Source: Streptacidiphilus albus JL83 (lineage in GTDB: Bacteria; Actinomycetota; Actinomycetes; Streptomycetales; Streptomycetaceae). From it: a DNA stretch of 64,000 nucleotides. The notes beneath the pieces are model-generated. The model was not told the origin of the DNA. It did not search any database and was given only the letters and a program-made list of their open reading frames with translations. A program made the translations under genes and the position numbers. The stretch covers positions 5,032,017-5,096,016 of the forward strand of contig NZ_JQML01000001.1 in the NCBI RefSeq assembly GCF_000744705.1. Direction: 5' to 3'. Below, one piece after another: positions 3,631 to 11,712 of this stretch (the first letter of the stretch is position 1; every line of letters starts with the position of its first letter).

Positions 3631-3750
3631 TCAGCCCTCCTTCTGGGCAGGCGATGTGACGGCGGGGGAGCAGGACAGCCGGTCAGCCTCCCAGCGGCAC
3701 GGCGCGACTGCGGTGACGCCGGTGACGCTGTGACTGGTGTGACAGTTCAT
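3631..3750 (-). CDS. Tiny ORF (39 aa) between rep and xis
   Basis: ATG overlaps the stop of the ATPase gene as ATGA and the frame ends 2 bases before the xis start codon, so it exactly fills the gap and contains the xis ribosome binding site. The peptide is Cys/His/Ser/Thr/Val-rich (MNCHTSHSVTGVTAV start). The fit suggests either a small AICE protein or a coupling frame that carries ribosomes to xis. No family recognised. Confidence 0.45.
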   Translation of the reverse strand: MNCHTSHSVTGVTAVAPCRWEADRLSCSPAVTSPAQKEG

Positions 3751-4769
3751 GCCCGTCCCCCGTTCTGGCCAGGTACGACGTAGCCGCCGGACCGCCGGAC
3801 CAACTGAACGTCGTTGGCCATCCGGGAGCAGGTCTGGCGAACCAGAGCCGCATCCAGACCGGTGGCCTCCGTGATCTCCTTCGGCTTCGCCCCGGGGTGG
3901 TCCCGGACGTAACGCAGGATCATGACGCGGGTGTCGCCGATGGTGTGGTCCTCGGCCGGCCCGTCCAGGAGGTGCCAGGCTCCCGTCTCGGCCTCGAAGC
4001 GGAGCGCGTACTCGGTCTCGTCCACGTCGCGTCCGGTGACGTGCAGCACGCCGTCGGCCTGGCCCCGGGAGCGCTTCAGGACGAGCGTCGCGTCTGCGGC
4101 TCCGGCCAGGCCGTTGGTGCCGGAGACCTCAGCGAGGAAGTCGTCCGAGCCAGCCTTGCGGACGTGGTGGACCAGGACCACCGCGATACCGTAGTGATCC
4201 GCGATCCGCTTGGCGTGCCCGACGGCCGCGTAATCCGCGTCATAGGCGGACATTCCGGGGGCCGACAGACCGCGCATCTTCGCGAAGACGTCGATGACGA
4301 CCATCCGCGCGTTGTCGTTCCGCTCGATCCACTGCGAGATGGCTTCGCTGCCGCCCTGGGGCAGGGTCGGGCAGGAGGTCGCCAGCGTCAGCGTGGCCGG
4401 AGCGCGGCGGTCGCCGAGCATCTTCCGCATCCGGGTCTGCAGGCGGCGCGCGGTGTCCTCAAGCGCCAGGTAGAGGACCGGTCCGCCGTCGACGGGCACG
4501 CTCTCCATCGCCTGGCCACCGGCCGCGACGGAGAGCGCCAGGCCGAGGGAGAGCCAGCTCTTGCCGACCTTGGGCGGTCCGCAGAGCAGGTTGACGCCTT
4601 CGGAGATGATCCCGGGAACGGCCCAGCGCGGCTCCGGGAACTCGGTGGCCATCAGCTCGTCGGCGGTCCACGCGGTACGGATGCGCTGCTGCGCCGGCTG
4701 AAGCGGCCTCGGCTCCGGCGTGCTCTGCGCCGTGTACAGGTTGGACGGGTCGTACGTGGTGGCGTTCAT
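3747..4769 (-). CDS. RecA-like AAA ATPase, replication protein of the AICE
   Basis: A 340-aa P-loop ATPase of the AAA_25/RepA-helicase type. Walker A is GPPKVGKS (about 64-71) and Walker B is VVIDVF (Asp about 160). A segment with VLVHHVRKAG and SGTNGLAGAAD matches the motif region of hexameric RepA/DnaB-like helicases. The C-terminal 70 residues (PKEITEATGLDAALVRQTCSRM) look like a winged helix for DNA binding. It overlaps the prim-pol gene by 4 bases (ATGA), so the two are coupled and probably act together in element replication after excision. Which of them recognises the origin cannot be seen. Confidence 0.87.
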   Translation of the reverse strand: MNATTYDPSNLYTAQSTPEPRPLQPAQQRIRTAWTADELMATEFPEPRWAVPGIISEGVNLLCGPPKVGKSWLSLGLALSVAAGGQAMESVPVDGGPVLYLALEDTARRLQTRMRKMLGDRRAPATLTLATSCPTLPQGGSEAISQWIERNDNARMVVIDVFAKMRGLSAPGMSAYDADYAAVGHAKRIADHYGIAVVLVHHVRKAGSDDFLAEVSGTNGLAGAADATLVLKRSRGQADGVLHVTGRDVDETEYALRFEAETGAWHLLDGPAEDHTIGDTRVMILRYVRDHPGAKPKEITEATGLDAALVRQTCSRMANDVQLVRRSGGYVVPGQNGGRA

Positions 4770-5659
4770 GCGGCGCTCCGAGCGATGGTGCGAGGCCGCC
4801 GCGCGCCGGCCCGAAAGCCGGAGGCGATGGTGCGCTGAATTTCGTTGGTTTGCAGGCCGACCCCGTGAGCTGCTGCGGTGAGCTCGGCAGTCACATCGGC
4901 GGCAGGCAGTTCCCCGCCCGTGACCAGCTGCCCCAGCGCCACAGCGGCCAGGTAGAGAGCGGTGTTGCGGCGGCTGGTGGGTGCCGCTGCCACGCGGGCC
5001 ACCTCGGCGTTGACCGCAGCGCGGAGGTAGGCCGCGTTCCGGCCTCTGAGGGCCAACGGCGCAACCCGATACCCCTGCTGAGGCACGGGCGCCGGTGCCA
5101 GTCGCTCGGCGAGCCACCCAGGCAGGGGAGCAGGGGCCCGGTCGTCAACGACCCGATAGGAGCGGCCGTTGACCACGCTGCCCGCCCCGACAATGCATCC
5201 GCCGTGGGCGCGGGTGTCGATCTTCCAGCCGAGGACTCCGGCGGTATTCCGGAGCCGCATGCCCGCCGGTGCAGCAAAGTAGAGATGCCGTCCCCCGCTG
5301 CCGCTGCGGACGGTGAAGGTACCGCTCGGGAAGGGCTGGCCCGCCGTCTCGGCCAGCAGGGCTAGCGCATCCTGGCCATCGGCCAGGGCTGAGGCAGCGC
5401 CAGCGGGCGGCAGGTCCCCGCTGTGCTTGGGCACGTCCAGGTCGACGACGACCAGGCCGGAGGGGCCGGTGGCGATGCCGACGTTGTACGCACCGAAGGC
5501 CCAGCAGGGGTCGATGCGTCCAAGCGCGGTCGTGGCTCGGCTCTCCCACGAGCGCAGGGCGGGACGCTTGCTACCGGGAGCGAGCGGGAAAACGAACCAT
5601 CCTCGCACAGCGGCCTCACGTGCGGCGAGAGCCAGCGGGCTGGGGTTGTTTTGGTGCAT
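4766..5659 (-). CDS. Bifunctional DNA primase/polymerase (prim-pol)
   Basis: A 297-aa archaeo-eukaryotic primase superfamily protein. The catalytic metal ligands are visible as VVVDLDVPKH (Asp73 and Asp75) and the nucleotide-binding His in GGRHLYF (His125). The N-terminus (GWFVFPLAPGSKRP) is the standard opening of plasmid and AICE prim-pols. The C-terminal third resembles the PriCT-like helical tail. It would prime and possibly extend DNA during AICE replication. The start follows AGGAGGTG. Its leader carries the conserved hairpin described at 5660-5739. Confidence 0.9.
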   Translation of the reverse strand: MHQNNPSPLALAAREAAVRGWFVFPLAPGSKRPALRSWESRATTALGRIDPCWAFGAYNVGIATGPSGLVVVDLDVPKHSGDLPPAGAASALADGQDALALLAETAGQPFPSGTFTVRSGSGGRHLYFAAPAGMRLRNTAGVLGWKIDTRAHGGCIVGAGSVVNGRSYRVVDDRAPAPLPGWLAERLAPAPVPQQGYRVAPLALRGRNAAYLRAAVNAEVARVAAAPTSRRNTALYLAAVALGQLVTGGELPAADVTAELTAAAHGVGLQTNEIQRTIASGFRAGARRPRTIARSAA

Positions 5660-5739
5660 GCTGATAGCACCTCCTGTTTCCTGGAAGGGATGGGAGTTAC
5701 TGGGGCAGCGGGCCTCGTTGACCCGTCGACCGCTGCCCC
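5660..5739 (-). promoter_or_regulatory. Structured 5' leader element I (prim-pol)
   Basis: In + strand terms GGGGCAGCG (5702-5710) pairs with CGCTGCCCC (5731-5739) around a 20-base loop GGCCTCGTTGACCCGTCGAC. The gene's RNA carries the reverse complement. The loop is identical in 19 of 20 bases to leader II (11685-11704). The stem differs by two compensated base pairs. Between hairpin and start codon both leaders share CTCCCATCCC, TTCCAGG and CAGGAG. The covarying stem with a fixed loop suggests a protein- or RNA-binding structure controlling prim-pol expression. Confidence 0.65.
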
Positions 5740-5748
5740 GGGCTCATT

Positions 5749-7091: not shown

Positions 7092-7334
7092 CTACCGGGT
7101 ACCGTCGCGGCGAGCACGGGCCCAGGCGTTCCACATGCGGCGACCGATCCGCAGACGCAGCCCGGTGGCGTTGCAGTGGCGGCAGTCCTTGCCGCGCCGG
7201 AGGTGTCCCATGCGGGTCTTACGGATCAGGAACCCGAAGCCCTTGCAGCGGCGGCAGCGCCCGAAGGGCGACCCCGCACAGAGGCTTATGTAACCGATAG
7301 TGAAGATGAACAGCCACACGACGACATTGACCAT
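7092..7334 (-). CDS. Small membrane-anchored zinc-ribbon-like protein (80 aa)
   Basis: The N-terminus is a membrane helix (VVVWLFIFTIGYISLCAG). Two CxxC motifs follow, CRRCKGFG and CRHCNATG, both of the CxxCxGxG style of DnaJ zinc fingers, and the C-terminus is strongly basic. The layout suggests a membrane-tethered nucleic-acid or protein binding zinc domain. It starts at ATG 7334 after GGAGACC. The CTAG-rich region directly upstream is its likely control region. Confidence 0.75.
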   Translation of the reverse strand: MVNVVVWLFIFTIGYISLCAGSPFGRCRRCKGFGFLIRKTRMGHLRRGKDCRHCNATGLRLRIGRRMWNAWARARRDGTR

Positions 7335-7484: not shown

Positions 7485-9698
7485 TCAGTCGCCGGAGCGC
7501 TTCTGGATACGCTCCGCAATCACCTTGGTCACGTCAGCACGAGCGATTCCGCGCCGCGTGGTGCCCTTGCCTCCGCCGGCGGGAGTGCCCCAGACGTCCT
7601 GGGCGCTGATGCCGTGCGGCTTGAGGTTGGTGGTGACGGTCTCGCTCTTCCAGCCCGTGTAGATCTCGGGACGCAGGTCGGCGAGGCGCGCGGCGACCTT
7701 CTCGTTCCAGACCTTCTCCTCATCCACGGGAACCACCGCGAGGATGTCGGCGAGAAGGTCGTAGACCGGCGCGGAGTCCGCAGCGGGGGCCTGGCCAGCG
7801 GCGTGGCCAGTGATGTTGCCGTACTCCTCGCGCACCTTGCGGGCCCGGGCGACGACCTGTTCGGCAGCCGGGCCGTCGATGAACGCAGAGCACACGATGC
7901 GCGGGTCGTCGCCCTCGCCGGCCATCCACGCGATGCCCTTGTCTGAGCGGGAGAACATCGTCGCCCGGTACCCGGCCTTGTACATCGAGGTGCCCAAGAC
8001 CATGTCGTTGGCGATGTTGCCCATGACCTTCAGGGCGAACCGCAGCACGGCATTGGCGTTGATGCCGGGCGGCAAGGACTTGGCGTCCGGGCGCTGGGTG
8101 CCGAACATCGCCATGATGCCCAGCGCCGGACCGCGCTTGGTCAGGTCGGTGCAGATGTCTTCGATCTCCGCCCCGTACTCGGAGTGCTCGAAGGGCACCT
8201 GGCACTCGTCGAACGCGGCCACGATCGGGTGCAGACCGTACTTCTTGTCGCTGGCCAGGGCCGGGGTCACCTTGTTCTCCGGGCAGATCGCCCGGGGCAA
8301 GGTCCGGATCAGCTTGGCGCGCCTGCGCATCTCCTGGCGCAGTTCGCGCAGCGAGGCAACGACGTACTCCATGTCCTCGTCCTCGTCACCCGAGCGGTAG
8401 CGGTGGCAGACCGGCTCCAGCGGACCCAGATCGCCGGTGCCCTTGAACTCGAACGCGTACAGCTCGGCGCGCGGGTCCAGGGCCGCGATCAGCATCAACA
8501 GCCGCATCAGGAACGTCTTGCCCATACGCGGAATGGAGCCGACCACCACCGAGGCGAACATCAAGGTGACCTCAACAGGCCGCATGCGCTGGTCGTTGCC
8601 GAACACCACGGGCTTGAACAGGTCCACCGTGCCGGACTTGAGCAGCGGCCAGGCAGGCTTCTTGGTCTCGTTCATGGGCCGGTCGCCCACCCAAAGGATC
8701 AGCGCGCCCTCGTGGGAGTCAGGGTTAGGGCTGGGCCACACACACGCCAGCTTGCGGCGCAGCCCGGACGCCAGGGCCTTGCGCTTCTCCATCACGTCTT
8801 CCGGCGTGACGCCGTAGGGCAGGTCCACCTCCGCGCGGTAGCCAGGACCGTCACGGGTGATCTCGGAGGTGAACTTGATGCCCTCCCCGCCCTTGGCCAG
8901 CGCCTTGTTGATCTTGTCGTTGCCGATCGAACCCAGCGCCCGCAGCACGATCGAGGTGGTCAGCTTCTCCAACTCGGTCTTGACCACCGCCGGGCCGATG
9001 ATGGGCTTGTCCGGGCGCTGGCCGGCGAAGCCCAGCGCCAGCACCGCAGCCCCCGCCAGGGCCAGCAGGTAGTGAGGAGCCAGGACGTACATGGACAGGG
9101 CCAAGCCCAGGCCGAACACCGAGGCGACCGTGGCGACCAGCGAGCGCCAACGCACATGCCGGTCCCGTGCCCGGGTCAGCGTCATGTACTCGGATGCGTT
9201 GTCCGAGGCCACCGCCGAGGCGCGCAGCGGGGCCATGTCCAAGTCCCACACCCACCGGTTCATGGCCTTCATGAACCGGCCGGCGCCGATCGGGGCGGTG
9301 CCAGCCAGGCGGGCGGCGTAGTAGGGGGTCCGGACGCAGTGGAACGCGCACGCGTAACCGGCGTTCATTCCGGCCCGGGTCAGCGCGCTGGTCAGGTCGG
9401 CCTTGCTGCGGACCCAGGCAGGGACGATCGGACGGCGCTTGACCTCGGTGATACCGGGTCCGGGCAGGTCCGGCGGGTCCGCCGGAACCGAGACGGGCGG
9501 GGCGTCCTCAGGGTCCTCGAAGTCCCCCGCGACCCGCCCCGAGCCGTCCGCCGGGGGCGCGGCCGCCGGAGCGGCGGCGGGTCCGGCGGTCTCGGCCTTG
9601 GCGTCCACGCCGGCGGTGACCGGGGCGGGGGTGTTCATGTCGGCTTCCAGGCGCGCGAACAGCTCGCGCTCCGGGTCGCCCTCACTCGGGTGGTTCAC
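7485..9698 (-). CDS. tra: FtsK/SpoIIIE-like conjugal DNA translocase (Tra)
   Basis: A 737-aa single-protein conjugation motor of the TraSA/TraB type that would pump double-stranded element DNA between hyphae. The N-terminal 100 residues are Pro/Ala-rich and acidic. A membrane region lies at about 175-220 (VATVASVFGLGLALSMYVLA and a second helix). The ATPase follows with Walker A GSIPRMGKT (about 389-397) and Walker B IVAAFDECQ (about 490-498). The C-terminal 70 residues probably hold the winged helix that reads repeats on the element. GTG at 9698 is used because AAGGAACC precedes it. Its leader contains hairpin III. Confidence 0.93.
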   Translation of the reverse strand: MNHPSEGDPERELFARLEADMNTPAPVTAGVDAKAETAGPAAAPAAAPPADGSGRVAGDFEDPEDAPPVSVPADPPDLPGPGITEVKRRPIVPAWVRSKADLTSALTRAGMNAGYACAFHCVRTPYYAARLAGTAPIGAGRFMKAMNRWVWDLDMAPLRASAVASDNASEYMTLTRARDRHVRWRSLVATVASVFGLGLALSMYVLAPHYLLALAGAAVLALGFAGQRPDKPIIGPAVVKTELEKLTTSIVLRALGSIGNDKINKALAKGGEGIKFTSEITRDGPGYRAEVDLPYGVTPEDVMEKRKALASGLRRKLACVWPSPNPDSHEGALILWVGDRPMNETKKPAWPLLKSGTVDLFKPVVFGNDQRMRPVEVTLMFASVVVGSIPRMGKTFLMRLLMLIAALDPRAELYAFEFKGTGDLGPLEPVCHRYRSGDEDEDMEYVVASLRELRQEMRRRAKLIRTLPRAICPENKVTPALASDKKYGLHPIVAAFDECQVPFEHSEYGAEIEDICTDLTKRGPALGIMAMFGTQRPDAKSLPPGINANAVLRFALKVMGNIANDMVLGTSMYKAGYRATMFSRSDKGIAWMAGEGDDPRIVCSAFIDGPAAEQVVARARKVREEYGNITGHAAGQAPAADSAPVYDLLADILAVVPVDEEKVWNEKVAARLADLRPEIYTGWKSETVTTNLKPHGISAQDVWGTPAGGGKGTTRRGIARADVTKVIAERIQKRSGD

Positions 9699-9768
9699 TG
9701 GTGGTTCCTTCCGATGCTGGGAGGGACCGGGGCACGTCGTTGCTGTCCAGGCGTGGGACGTGCCCCGG
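9699..9768 (-). promoter_or_regulatory. Structured 5' leader element III (tra)
   Basis: CCGGGGCACGT (9727-9737) pairs with ACGTGCCCCGG (9758-9768) around a 20-base loop. The stem-loop sits about 30 bases before the tra start. Loop length, GGGGC stem foot and distance match leaders I and II, but the loop sequence is different. It may be a diverged member of the same element or an independent hairpin. Confidence 0.5.
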
Positions 9769-9858
9769 GTCATGTGCAGGAGAAGGCGCTGTTCTTGAGG
9801 AGCTCGGGGCTCAGCGGCCCTCGGAGTCGGCGAGTGCCTCGAATTTGTCGGCGGTTCG

Positions 9859-10191
9859 TCAGGCGGCGATCGGGGCGGGTTCGGCCGACTCAACGGGCAG
9901 CGGCATGTAGCCGACGAGCAGCAGGCGGATGCCGTCGTAGTCGCGGGTGATCTCGATGGTGTGGAAGGTGTCGTAGGGCTCGCCGGCGGCGGTCTGCGGG
10001 TCCATGGCCAGGGCTTCGCGCCACTGTTCGAACGCGGCCGGGTCGTGGGCGTTGACCCTGAGGTTCGGCCCCACCGGGTAGGCGGTGATGTCGAAGCCGA
10101 CGGCGGGCAGGTCGGGGAACCGGGTGACCAGGGCGAGCAGGATGCGGGCAGCGGCAGTCTGCGTGGCGGCGCTGGGGGCGTGGTTGCTCAT
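9859..10191 (-). CDS. AICE hypothetical protein (110 aa)
   Basis: A soluble protein with alternating beta-like stretches (AVGFDITAYPVGPNLRVNAH, DTFHTIEITRDYDGIRLLLV). No catalytic motif is seen. ATG at 10191 follows GGAAGGAAC. It lies between the DUF2637 gene and tra, where small conserved AICE proteins of unknown function are usual. Confidence 0.7.
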   Translation of the reverse strand: MSNHAPSAATQTAAARILLALVTRFPDLPAVGFDITAYPVGPNLRVNAHDPAAFEQWREALAMDPQTAAGEPYDTFHTIEITRDYDGIRLLLVGYMPLPVESAEPAPIAA

Positions 10192-10211: not shown

Positions 10212-11213
10212 TCAGCGGGTGGTGGCGGGCACGGGCGTGCCCTCGGTGAGGTCGGGGACGGCGTGGAGTTCGGGGCGGGTCTCGCGTGCTTCCTGGTAGC
10301 GGGCGGCGATCCATCCGGCCGACCAGCCGGTCAGCTCCACCGCCCGTCGTTGCGGCAGGCCAGCAGCGATCGCAACGTGCACGGTTTGCCGAGCGTCTGC
10401 CTCCGGCACCTTCTCGCTCACCGCAGGGGCGATCAGTAGTTCCTGGCGCAGTTGCTCGGCCACCTGCCGGAAGCGCTGTTCGGCGGCGGCCCGCTCGGCG
10501 CGCTCACGCTCGCTCGCCTCACGTTCACGGTGCTCACGCTCACGAGACTCGTGCTCACGGCGCTCCCGCTCGGCCCGCTCGGCAGCCTCCCGGCGAGCCT
10601 GCTCTTCGCGCTCCTCGCGCCGCAGCCGTGCTTCGTGCTCACGCTGCTCGTGCGCCAGTCGGGCTTCGTGCTCACGGCGCTCACGCTCCCGCTGCTCCGC
10701 CACGTCCCGCTCGGCCTGGCGCGCCTCGCGGGCCATCCGATCGCGCTCCTCGGCCTGGCGTTGGCGCTCCGCCCGCTCCGCGCGCTCAGCAGCCTGGCGC
10801 GCCTCAAGCGCCCTGCCGATCGCCCTGCGGTAAGCCAGTGAGGCTTCCGAGGTGACGATCAGCAGAAGGGGCGCGACGGCGTGCACGGCCACGCCCACCG
10901 GGTCCCGGTTCAGCGCGGACAGGGCGGTGTTGAGCAGCACGGTCATGATGCCGGTCATCCACCGCAGGGCGGCGGGCCACCGGCCCCCGTTCGCGTCCAA
11001 GCGGGCAAGGGTGCTGTCCATCCGGACCACGATGACCACCGCCGCATCGACCACCAGCGGCAGGATCGGGGCCGTCCAGTGCCATCCCACTGGACTATGA
11101 CCGGCCATCAGCGGAGTGACCGTGAGCACGCTGTAGAGCACCGCGCCTGCGGTGATCGCCCACGTCCCCACATTCAACGCCAGCTCGGCCCGGCGTACCT
11201 GATCCGGGCTCAT
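10212..11213 (-). CDS. DUF2637 membrane protein with long coiled coil (spread protein)
   Basis: The N-terminal DUF2637 region has about four membrane helices (WAITAGAVLYSVLTVTPL; PILPLVVDAAVVIVV; GIMTVLLNTALSAL; VGVAVHAVAPLLLIV). A highly charged Glu/Arg coiled coil of about 130 residues follows (RERERREHEARLAHEQ-type repeats). The C-terminal 60 residues (AGLPQRRAVELTGWSAGWIAARYQ) form a helix-turn-helix-like domain. Such proteins are encoded next to tra in AICEs and are linked to plasmid spreading. The start is uncertain: ATG 11213 or GTG 11225; a 10-bp hairpin covers this region. Confidence 0.85.
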   Translation of the reverse strand: MSPDQVRRAELALNVGTWAITAGAVLYSVLTVTPLMAGHSPVGWHWTAPILPLVVDAAVVIVVRMDSTLARLDANGGRWPAALRWMTGIMTVLLNTALSALNRDPVGVAVHAVAPLLLIVTSEASLAYRRAIGRALEARQAAERAERAERQRQAEERDRMAREARQAERDVAEQRERERREHEARLAHEQREHEARLRREEREEQARREAAERAERERREHESREREHREREASERERAERAAAEQRFRQVAEQLRQELLIAPAVSEKVPEADARQTVHVAIAAGLPQRRAVELTGWSAGWIAARYQEARETRPELHAVPDLTEGTPVPATTR

Positions 11214-11219
11214 CGTCGC

Positions 11220-11253
11220 GCTCACGACACCCACCATCCGCCCTGTCGTGAGC
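11220..11253 (-). promoter_or_regulatory. Hairpin at the start of the DUF2637 gene
   Basis: GCTCACGACA (11220-11229) pairs perfectly with TGTCGTGAGC (11244-11253) with a 14-base loop. In the mRNA it ends 6 bases before ATG 11213 and buries the alternative GTG 11225 and the GGTGGG purine stretch. It could be an operator or a translation-limiting hairpin. Confidence 0.45.
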
Positions 11254-11337
11254 GGGCCGTGAGCGTGGTGAGCACGGCAGCCGTCCCCAGAAACGGCAGG
11301 GCCTTCGGCAGTGCCGCTTCGAGGCGGCTCCGGACAC

Positions 11338-11631
11338 TCACGCGGCTTCGCCCCAGACCGCACGCCGGATGATGCTGCGCTGGATCAACGGCGTGGCGTT
11401 CAACAGGACCGCGACGTAGGCGGCCAGCTCGGGCGCCTCGGTCTCCAGGTCTGCCAGGACCCCGCGCGCCGCCTCCTGGCGGACGGCACGGGCCTTGGCG
11501 TTCTCCCCCGGTGTGCCGAGGAACAGCTCCTGCAGGAACTCCGGGAGCTGCTCATCGGCGTCGAAGCCGAGGGCCAGCTCCTCGAACTCGGAGGCACTGA
11601 TGGCCTCCTGCTGTCCGATGTACGTACGCAT
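11338..11631 (-). CDS. AICE hypothetical protein (97 aa)
   Basis: An acidic, helical protein (SEFEELALGFDADEQLPEFL) with a less charged C-terminal part (YVAVLLNATPLIQRSIIRRAV). No family recognised. ATG 11631 is preceded by CAGGAGAG. It is one of the two genes with the conserved structured leader, which implies shared control with the prim-pol gene. Its 3' end lies upstream of the DUF2637 start, so the two are probably co-transcribed. Confidence 0.72.
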   Translation of the reverse strand: MRTYIGQQEAISASEFEELALGFDADEQLPEFLQELFLGTPGENAKARAVRQEAARGVLADLETEAPELAAYVAVLLNATPLIQRSIIRRAVWGEAA

Positions 11632-11712
11632 ATGGAACTCTCCTGATGCCTGGAACGGGATGGGAGGAGGCGCCAGGGGTGGCGAGCCTCGTTGACCCGT
11701 CGACCGCCACCC
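11632..11712 (-). promoter_or_regulatory. Structured 5' leader element II (97-aa gene)
   Basis: GGGTGGCG (11677-11684) pairs with CGCCACCC (11705-11712) around a 20-base loop that matches leader I in 19 of 20 bases. Compared with leader I, a C-G pair is replaced by T-A and an A-T pair by G-C, so the stem is kept while the sequence changes. The stretch between hairpin and start (CTCCCATCCCG, TTCCAGG, CAGGAG) is also shared. Confidence 0.65.

Follow-up and report, generated by a model that had tools for sequence, protein, structure and literature searches.

Leader hairpins with element-specific loops before core genes of streptomycete AICEs look like an undescribed control switch

In a 64,000-nt stretch of Streptacidiphilus albus JL83 DNA (the window, meaning the whole stretch that was analysed), hairpins precede the genes for a primase-polymerase (prim-pol), a 97-aa protein and a TraB-like protein, and comparison with related elements gives good support to a widespread leader element whose loop is specific to the element that carries it. 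Sequence comparison bears out the structure and position of the unit, shows that the 97-aa and prim-pol leaders of one element agree in loop and 3′ flank, and sets the traB class apart as independent. These leader hairpins look like an undescribed element-specific control switch. We give a probability of roughly 45% to the reading that the feature before prim-pol belongs to a family of leader elements marking core genes in the AICEs of streptomycetes and in related plasmids, with an element-specific factor setting the expression of these genes.

RESULTS

Three leader hairpins in the window

The minus-strand gene set, which we read as an AICE, includes the 97-aa gene, one at the spdB position, one resembling traB, small genes, prim-pol, HEL (the label used for the AAA-type PF13481 gene), a small xis-like gene and the integrase, and a GntR/UTRA regulator is divergent from it. 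Prim-pol (4766–5659, 297 aa, PF09250) has the Shine–Dalgarno sequence GGAGG at 5670–5674, and the replication gene HEL occupies 3747–4766, the 3′ part of an open frame at 3747–5117. The 97-aa gene (11338–11631, without a Pfam family) has the Shine–Dalgarno sequence GGAG at 11640–11643; in two Streptomyces plasmids, genes at the corresponding place, directly before spdB or one gene earlier, carry a DUF6284 annotation. At the spdB place lies a gene (10212–11363) that carries a DUF2637 annotation in the matching plasmids, and the traB-like FtsK/SpoIIIE gene (7485–9698) has a GTG start, VNHPSEGDPERELF. All of these coordinates refer to the minus strand, as do those of an 80-aa protein (7092–7334) that begins with a hydrophobic stretch, has paired CxxC motifs and is found in 37/38 elements. 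A tRNA-Ser (anticodon tga, 683–772) near the integrase end of the element is a possible attachment site.

Both leaders reported in an initial annotation of this DNA were confirmed on the minus strand. Hairpin I, before prim-pol, spans 5700–5741 (arms 5741–5730 and 5711–5700), with a core of 10 bp, GGGGCAGCGG/CCGCTGCCCC, outermost pairs that include one C–A mismatch, and an 18-nt loop, tcgacgggtcaacgaggc, at 5729–5712. Hairpin II, before the 97-aa gene, spans 11677–11712 (arms 11712–11704 and 11685–11677, loop 11703–11686), and its stem consists of eight Watson–Crick pairs plus an inner G–U, so that the stem lengths are 10 and 8 (+1 G–U) bp, not 9 and 8 bp as first given. The two compensated stem pairs that had been claimed between the hairpins, A–U to G–C and C–G to U–A, are present, and the shared 20-base block, GGTCGACGGGTCAACGAGGC, is identical at 20/20 positions, where 19/20 had been counted. 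With up to three mismatches allowed, this block has two matches in the window, namely hairpins I and II, against 0.06 expected; elsewhere in the genome it has three 3-mismatch matches, and a reversed control pattern also has three. On the 3′ side, the flank of hairpin I at 5682–5699 reads TAACTCCCATCCCTTCCA, a stretch also matched within elements, and that of hairpin II at 11659–11676 reads CTGGCGCCTCCTCCCATC. The downstream stretch common to both leaders (CTCCCATCCC, TTCCAGG, CAGGAG) is conserved as described; the distance from stem to start codon, 42 nt for hairpin I and 45 nt for hairpin II, is similar rather than fixed. The count of two copies in the element was too low: a third hairpin at 9727–9768 (minus strand; CCGGGGCACGTC / loop ccacgcctggacagcaac / GACGTGCCCCGG) precedes the traB-like gene and belongs to a separate loop class.

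RNA folding of hairpins I and II was only modestly better than that of shuffled sequence (z of –2.4 and –1.4); it is the comparative data that carry the case. No gathering-level Rfam match was found in the whole window, nor, at the gathering threshold, in the hairpins of nine further elements, and lower-threshold matches in the searched stretches were below gathering scores and away from the leaders. An exact 18-mer scan of viral contigs gave no match. With two mismatches allowed, 6/14 genomes of the genus matched; the eight matches outside the window's genome were all at two mismatches, and the reversed control gave three.

A widespread leader unit

Relatives of prim-pol occur in 137/297 genomes of the family and relatives of the 97-aa protein in 97/297. 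We fetched 60 stretches and 60 further prim-pol neighbourhoods (the first 120 loci), and a partly overlapping set of named loci consists of the best 80 of 376 relatives that a scan with a prim-pol alignment gave, mostly from Streptomyces. By a mechanical criterion, which scores G–U and A–C alike and admits some hairpins without the class loop, a hairpin was present in 43/77 97-aa, 46/53 traB and 71/117 prim-pol leaders of the first 120 loci and in 28/45, 46/57 and 58/80, respectively, of the named loci. Pooling both sets gives 71/122, 92/110 and 129/197 leaders, compared with 48/600 random positions and 26/429 shuffled leaders; at a stricter score of 30 there remained 52, 78 and 118 leaders, against 11/600 random positions and 0/429 shuffled leaders. 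The criterion failed in 68/197 prim-pol and 51/122 97-aa leaders.

Elements bearing the hairpin are mostly of Streptomycetaceae. Outside this family, traB-class hairpins were found in four loci of Nonomuraea, Planobispora and Bailinhaonella (L249, L252, L255 and L274), in all of which the prim-pol leader fails the hairpin criterion. By eye, the hairpin is also seen at prim-pol in two Streptomyces plasmids and at the 97-aa and traB places of Saccharopolyspora pCM32, and it is not seen at the seven genes viewed in the rolling-circle plasmid pJV1. Five 97-aa/DUF6284 leaders have, by eye, another type of hairpin whose loop is of six bases (L136, L139, L110, L112 and L117), some of them with a T-run after it in the manner of an intrinsic terminator.

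In an alignment of 40 leaders, 9 of 11 pairs have changes on both sides, and double-change cells number 68, compared with 17.1 when partners are shuffled; sliding the partner abolishes the signal. These leaders were chosen for passing the hairpin criterion, which inflates the share of paired cells and double changes less so. The covariance model built from them, R1, gave 71 matches on 60 element stretches, many of which contain training elements; 69 were on the sense strand, and the other two come from 97-aa leaders in which the loop is inverted. Within 75 nt, 67/69 sense matches and 97/500 random positions are followed by a ribosome-binding motif together with an open start, and the remaining two (L097 and L107) precede a short open frame ahead of prim-pol. 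The initial annotation had proposed as its own test that copies in other elements should have compensated stems and sit before start codons, and this is what was found.

Across the family, R1 at E ≤ 0.01 had matches in 67/150 genomes, from one to nine in each, with a pre-filter that limits sensitivity and missed the window's own 97-aa copy; the only other match in the window's own genome was weak (E 0.24). For 30 genomes we fetched the best match, which in some cases is a training element, and all 30 precede an open start, a loose test that 140/500 random positions also pass. The proteins downstream matched prim-pol in 13 cases, xis in two, the 97-aa protein in one and, weakly, TraB and int in one each; others, judged by eye, include a diverged prim-pol type, DnaB-like proteins and methyltransferases. 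In L286, L093, L095 and L103, the gene directly upstream of the replication gene has a hairpin leader too; in L286 this gene encodes a C-5 cytosine methylase (8602–9894, PF00145), and in the others it is methyltransferase-like by eye. The hairpin leader also persists with other replication genes, that is a DnaB_N/DUF3987 protein in L287 and L289 and, in L286, a diverged prim-pol (PF09250) with a DUF3987 protein after it.

Loop identity follows the element

Within an element, the loops of the 97-aa and prim-pol leaders agree at 0.837 of positions, compared with 0.576 after permutation (0/2000 permutations, 38 distinct pairs), and in a smaller set of 21 pairs at 0.863 compared with 0.552. This smaller set derives from 64 of 69 matches, after three labelled traB, L119 and one stem under 6 bp were dropped, and an earlier loop tabulation omitted seven prim-pol rows that by eye lacked the class loop. 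The 18 nt after the stem match within elements as well (0.683 versus 0.564 permuted, 0/2000), as does the inner stem (0.741 versus 0.612). The 20 nt directly ahead of the start codon serve as a built-in control and show no such match (0.488 versus 0.488). Such permutations leave shared ancestry in, and related elements are not independent samples. Near-identical loops were found in 16/38 pairs. In 11 of the 16 the inner stem differs, so the loop match is not explained by the unit having been copied whole.

The loops before traB match neither the prim-pol loops (0.483 versus 0.479 permuted) nor the 97-aa loops (0.475 versus 0.468) of the same element, and by this comparison form a separate class, independent of the other two. 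One genome, G132, holds two elements (L095 and L096) with different loops, each matched internally. The loop is in this sense shared within the element and specific to it, which is the property expected of nut- or boxB-like sites. This matching favours recognition by an element-specific factor acting in trans. To that extent it agrees with the dedicated trans-acting factor postulated at the outset.

Candidate binders

Among the proteins compared, HEL best separates pairs of elements with like loops from pairs with unlike loops, with an AUC of 0.979 for prim-pol loops and 0.991 for 97-aa loops, the latter lying several kilobases away. The corresponding values are 0.948/0.906 for prim-pol, 0.908/0.903 for the 97-aa protein and 0.734/0.763 for TraB, and the product of a 135-aa gene before prim-pol comes close behind HEL (0.948/0.989) on fewer pairs. 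These tests kept the 118/129 prim-pol loops that have the class motif, or 113 after removal of up to eight named elements. When the comparison was limited to 17 dereplicated elements, HEL again came first (0.941) and prim-pol second (0.898), and in a 32-element comparison HEL had the highest rank correlation. With the first 38 elements, correlations over protein families were too weak to tell the candidates apart, and dividing the elements by loop type drew attention to xis/int and to lineage structure; the element sets differ among the 38-element, loop-split and 32-element tests.

The association of HEL with the loop is a correlation, and slow evolution of HEL may itself raise the AUC. Pairs of HEL that are 90% identical can have different loops. 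In L286, L287 and L289, HEL was not found by tblastn, and the known loop types retained there, together with other replication genes, argue against a necessary role of HEL. Sliding windows did not single out the C-terminal part of HEL as a specificity domain. The 97-aa protein appears a less likely binder, as it predicts loop type less well than HEL; 97-aa proteins 87–89% identical carry different loop types (L216/L219 and L221/L269), as the HEL pairs at 90% also do, no PDB entry matches its predicted structure (mean pLDDT 72) at E below 0.001, and the family has only weak Pfam matches, the best at E 0.009 and each in one member. The GntR regulator was rejected (AUC 0.47–0.55 against prim-pol and 97-aa loops), and no binder was identified among the element proteins compared.

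RNA or DNA as the working form

A structure in the sense RNA should favour G–U among its stem mismatches, and the missing G–U excess thus counts against RNA. In 150 distinct hairpins we counted 25 G–U and 42 A–C mismatches and in the named loci 34 and 30; terminator-like control hairpins had 23 and 14, a difference that is itself not significant (P 0.19). Loops are inverted in 7/43 97-aa leaders and possibly in 7/46 traB leaders, where the assignment is ambiguous. Prim-pol loops were forward in 59 cases, unassigned in 11 and reverse in one that by eye is not of class A, and there is no clear class-A prim-pol leader with an inverted loop. With mismatches free of G–U bias and some loops inverted, compensated stems are no proof that it is the RNA that acts. 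The functional RNA claimed by the initial annotation is consequently upheld as a structured leader with a conserved loop, a covarying stem and a downstream start codon in many elements, and not as to the molecule that acts.

The same two observations speak for a site at the DNA level, where proteins of replication or transfer would recognise the hairpin in cruciform or single-stranded DNA in the way that the RepB′ primase recognises RSF1010 ssiA, and the rank of the replication protein HEL as best predictor of loop type points the same way. However, the copies hold their strand and their place before start codons and also precede xis, int and methyltransferase genes; the three elements with known loop types and other replication genes, in which HEL was undetected, and the reservations about the AUC of HEL given above weigh against it further. 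We regard a DNA-level site as unlikely, and RNA action of the leader hairpin as likely on the evidence of sequence and position.

Also in favour of RNA, the Shine–Dalgarno sequence is paired in hairpin leaders at 0.85 compared with 0.71 in shuffled sequence (n = 155), but leaders without a hairpin also exceed their shuffles (0.68 versus 0.61, n = 117), and this signal is therefore not specific. A further point for RNA is that loops pair with their own Shine–Dalgarno region less than permuted loops do. A pseudoknot between loop and flank was considered and rejected, the own loop and 3′ flank pairing no better than permuted ones.

Stop codons, flanks and inverted loops

The prim-pol type of unit runs from an upstream stop codon over about 6 nt to the stem, which is near-perfect, GC-rich and about 10–15 bp long with a loop of mostly 15–20 nt, and then through an 18-nt C/U-rich flank to the Shine–Dalgarno sequence and the start codon. 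The stop lies 5–7 nt before the stem in 48/71 prim-pol leaders of the first 120 loci and in 45/58 of the named loci, which is a terminator's place, and pyrimidines make up 78% of the 12 nt that follow the stem. Together with the element-specific loops, these features would suit transcription attenuation with element-specific antitermination, in the manner of a lambdoid nut site, in which the hairpin and its C/U-rich tail halt the polymerase unless a loop-bound factor modifies it. T is sparse after the stem, however, with a mean of 2.9 in 12 nt, so that there is no classical U-tract and the combination of GC-rich stem and U-tract that defines an intrinsic terminator is lacking; the ratio of G–U to A–C mismatches also leans opposite to that of terminator-like hairpins. 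Attenuation is in our view improbable. A terminating ribosome is not required either, because such a stop is missing from a span of about 40 nt in 29/43 97-aa leaders.

In 69 prim-pol and extra leaders with a stop, the upstream genes form 27 clusters without BLAST similarity to one another (38 when traB leaders are included), and the stop is 5–7 nt before the stem in 57 of these 69 leaders, in 20 of the 27 clusters. This diversity, and the duplicated leaders that flank inserted genes in L093, L095, L103 and L286, would fit a boundary for the exchange of gene cassettes, like attC after a gene's stop codon, but the many 97-aa leaders without such a stop count against this explanation, which we regard as very unlikely. 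The proteins encoded just before the prim-pol leader, e.g. in L120, L123, L158 and L089, in several cases end in ..EPPF or ..DEPPF, and such ends resemble the tip of single-strand binding proteins. A TAG stop before the hairpin was also considered as a readthrough signal and rejected: by eye its spacing to the start codon keeps no frame, and TAG is likewise present at 21/53 traB stops.

Correction of palindromes by template switching would also yield perfect, symmetric stems, which makes the stem argument of the initial annotation weaker than it looks. In the 97-aa leaders of L087 and L089 the stem is nearly the same and the loop inverted, suggesting repeated inversions by template switching. 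That the hairpins are functionless palindromes kept perfect in this way, with near-perfect stems, symmetric mismatches and inverted loops as quasi-palindrome correction would leave them, is the least probable of the explanations, since selection is needed both for loops and 3′ flanks that agree inside an element while the stems around them differ and for the conserved position in many leaders.

DISCUSSION

In the reading that we prefer, a leader element with control in trans, an element-specific factor, either protein or RNA, would bind to loop and 3′ flank in the transcript, thereby setting the expression of the downstream gene. The level would most likely be translation, because the unit ends at the Shine–Dalgarno sequence. 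With one shared loop, one factor could set several genes together and leave a co-resident element alone, and TraB would answer to a second factor.

A broader proposal, which we hold more tentatively, is that of a leader-hairpin code of AICEs, in which each element would have its own word of loop and flank before the 97-aa gene and the replication gene, sometimes also before xis, int or methyltransferase genes, and a second word for traB, with one reader per word encoded by the element. If true, such a reader would turn replication and further steps on or off jointly, and separately from those of co-resident elements, amounting to a self/non-self code at the level of leaders. AICEs are conjugative elements widespread among actinomycetes that produce antibiotics; the code, if it exists, could explain the coexistence of several of them in one chromosome; matched pairs of hairpin and factor would be usable as orthogonal control parts. 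The regulation of AICEs named in the portion of the literature drawn on here is transcriptional (KorSA, Pra), and a leader code would add a further layer coordinating replication and transfer.

In the literature on AICEs, Streptomyces plasmids, prim-pol leaders and DUF6284, as represented by titles and the first lines of abstracts, no such leader appears; subscription journals and older AICE/pMEA300 work are largely outside this coverage. The available parts of PMC3218068, PMC8584621, PMC3583192, PMC4170104 and PMC9513070 do not describe one. A known structured RNA, gntR-DTE (Rfam RF02989), occurs in 2/9 elements scanned (L095 4479–4595 and L122 2026–2145). There the 97-aa leader hairpin lies downstream of this RNA, at distances of about 300 and 560 nt and without overlap; in the window the RNA has no match at gathering level.

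Lambdoid nut sites, with their boxB hairpins, work with a phage-specific N protein, and boxB hairpins are found on transcripts of early functions. The leaders described here are like boxB in that an element has several hairpins with one loop, which differs between elements. They are unlike it in their dimensions and place: boxB has a short stem and a small loop, whereas the stems here are of about 10–15 bp, the loops mostly of 15–20 nt, and the hairpin is by the Shine–Dalgarno sequence. Nor was a counterpart of the N protein identified.

Repeats bound by plasmid proteins are known from Streptomyces plasmids, namely the clt sites, the IR2 of pWTY27 bound by RepA (PMC3583192) and the sps palindrome (PMC4170104). 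As far as the consulted sections of these papers describe them, they are direct repeats, an inverted repeat of about 105 bp and a 12-bp palindrome inside spdA, and none is a loop-conserved leader hairpin. In RSF1010, ssiA and ssiB are hairpins with single-stranded flanks that the plasmid primase specifically recognises, according to the part of PMC4434180 used here; these sites act at the DNA level, are 40 nt long and occur once per strand, whereas the present hairpins have several copies, mostly on one strand and each before a gene start. ANTAR-target RNAs, in the account taken from PMC8164766, have two stem-loops with hexanucleotide loops in which A1 and G4 are conserved, a definition that the single hairpin and long loop of the window feature do not fit. 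They are nevertheless alike in being structured leaders of actinobacteria near ribosome-binding sites, and ANTAR targets are bound in trans.
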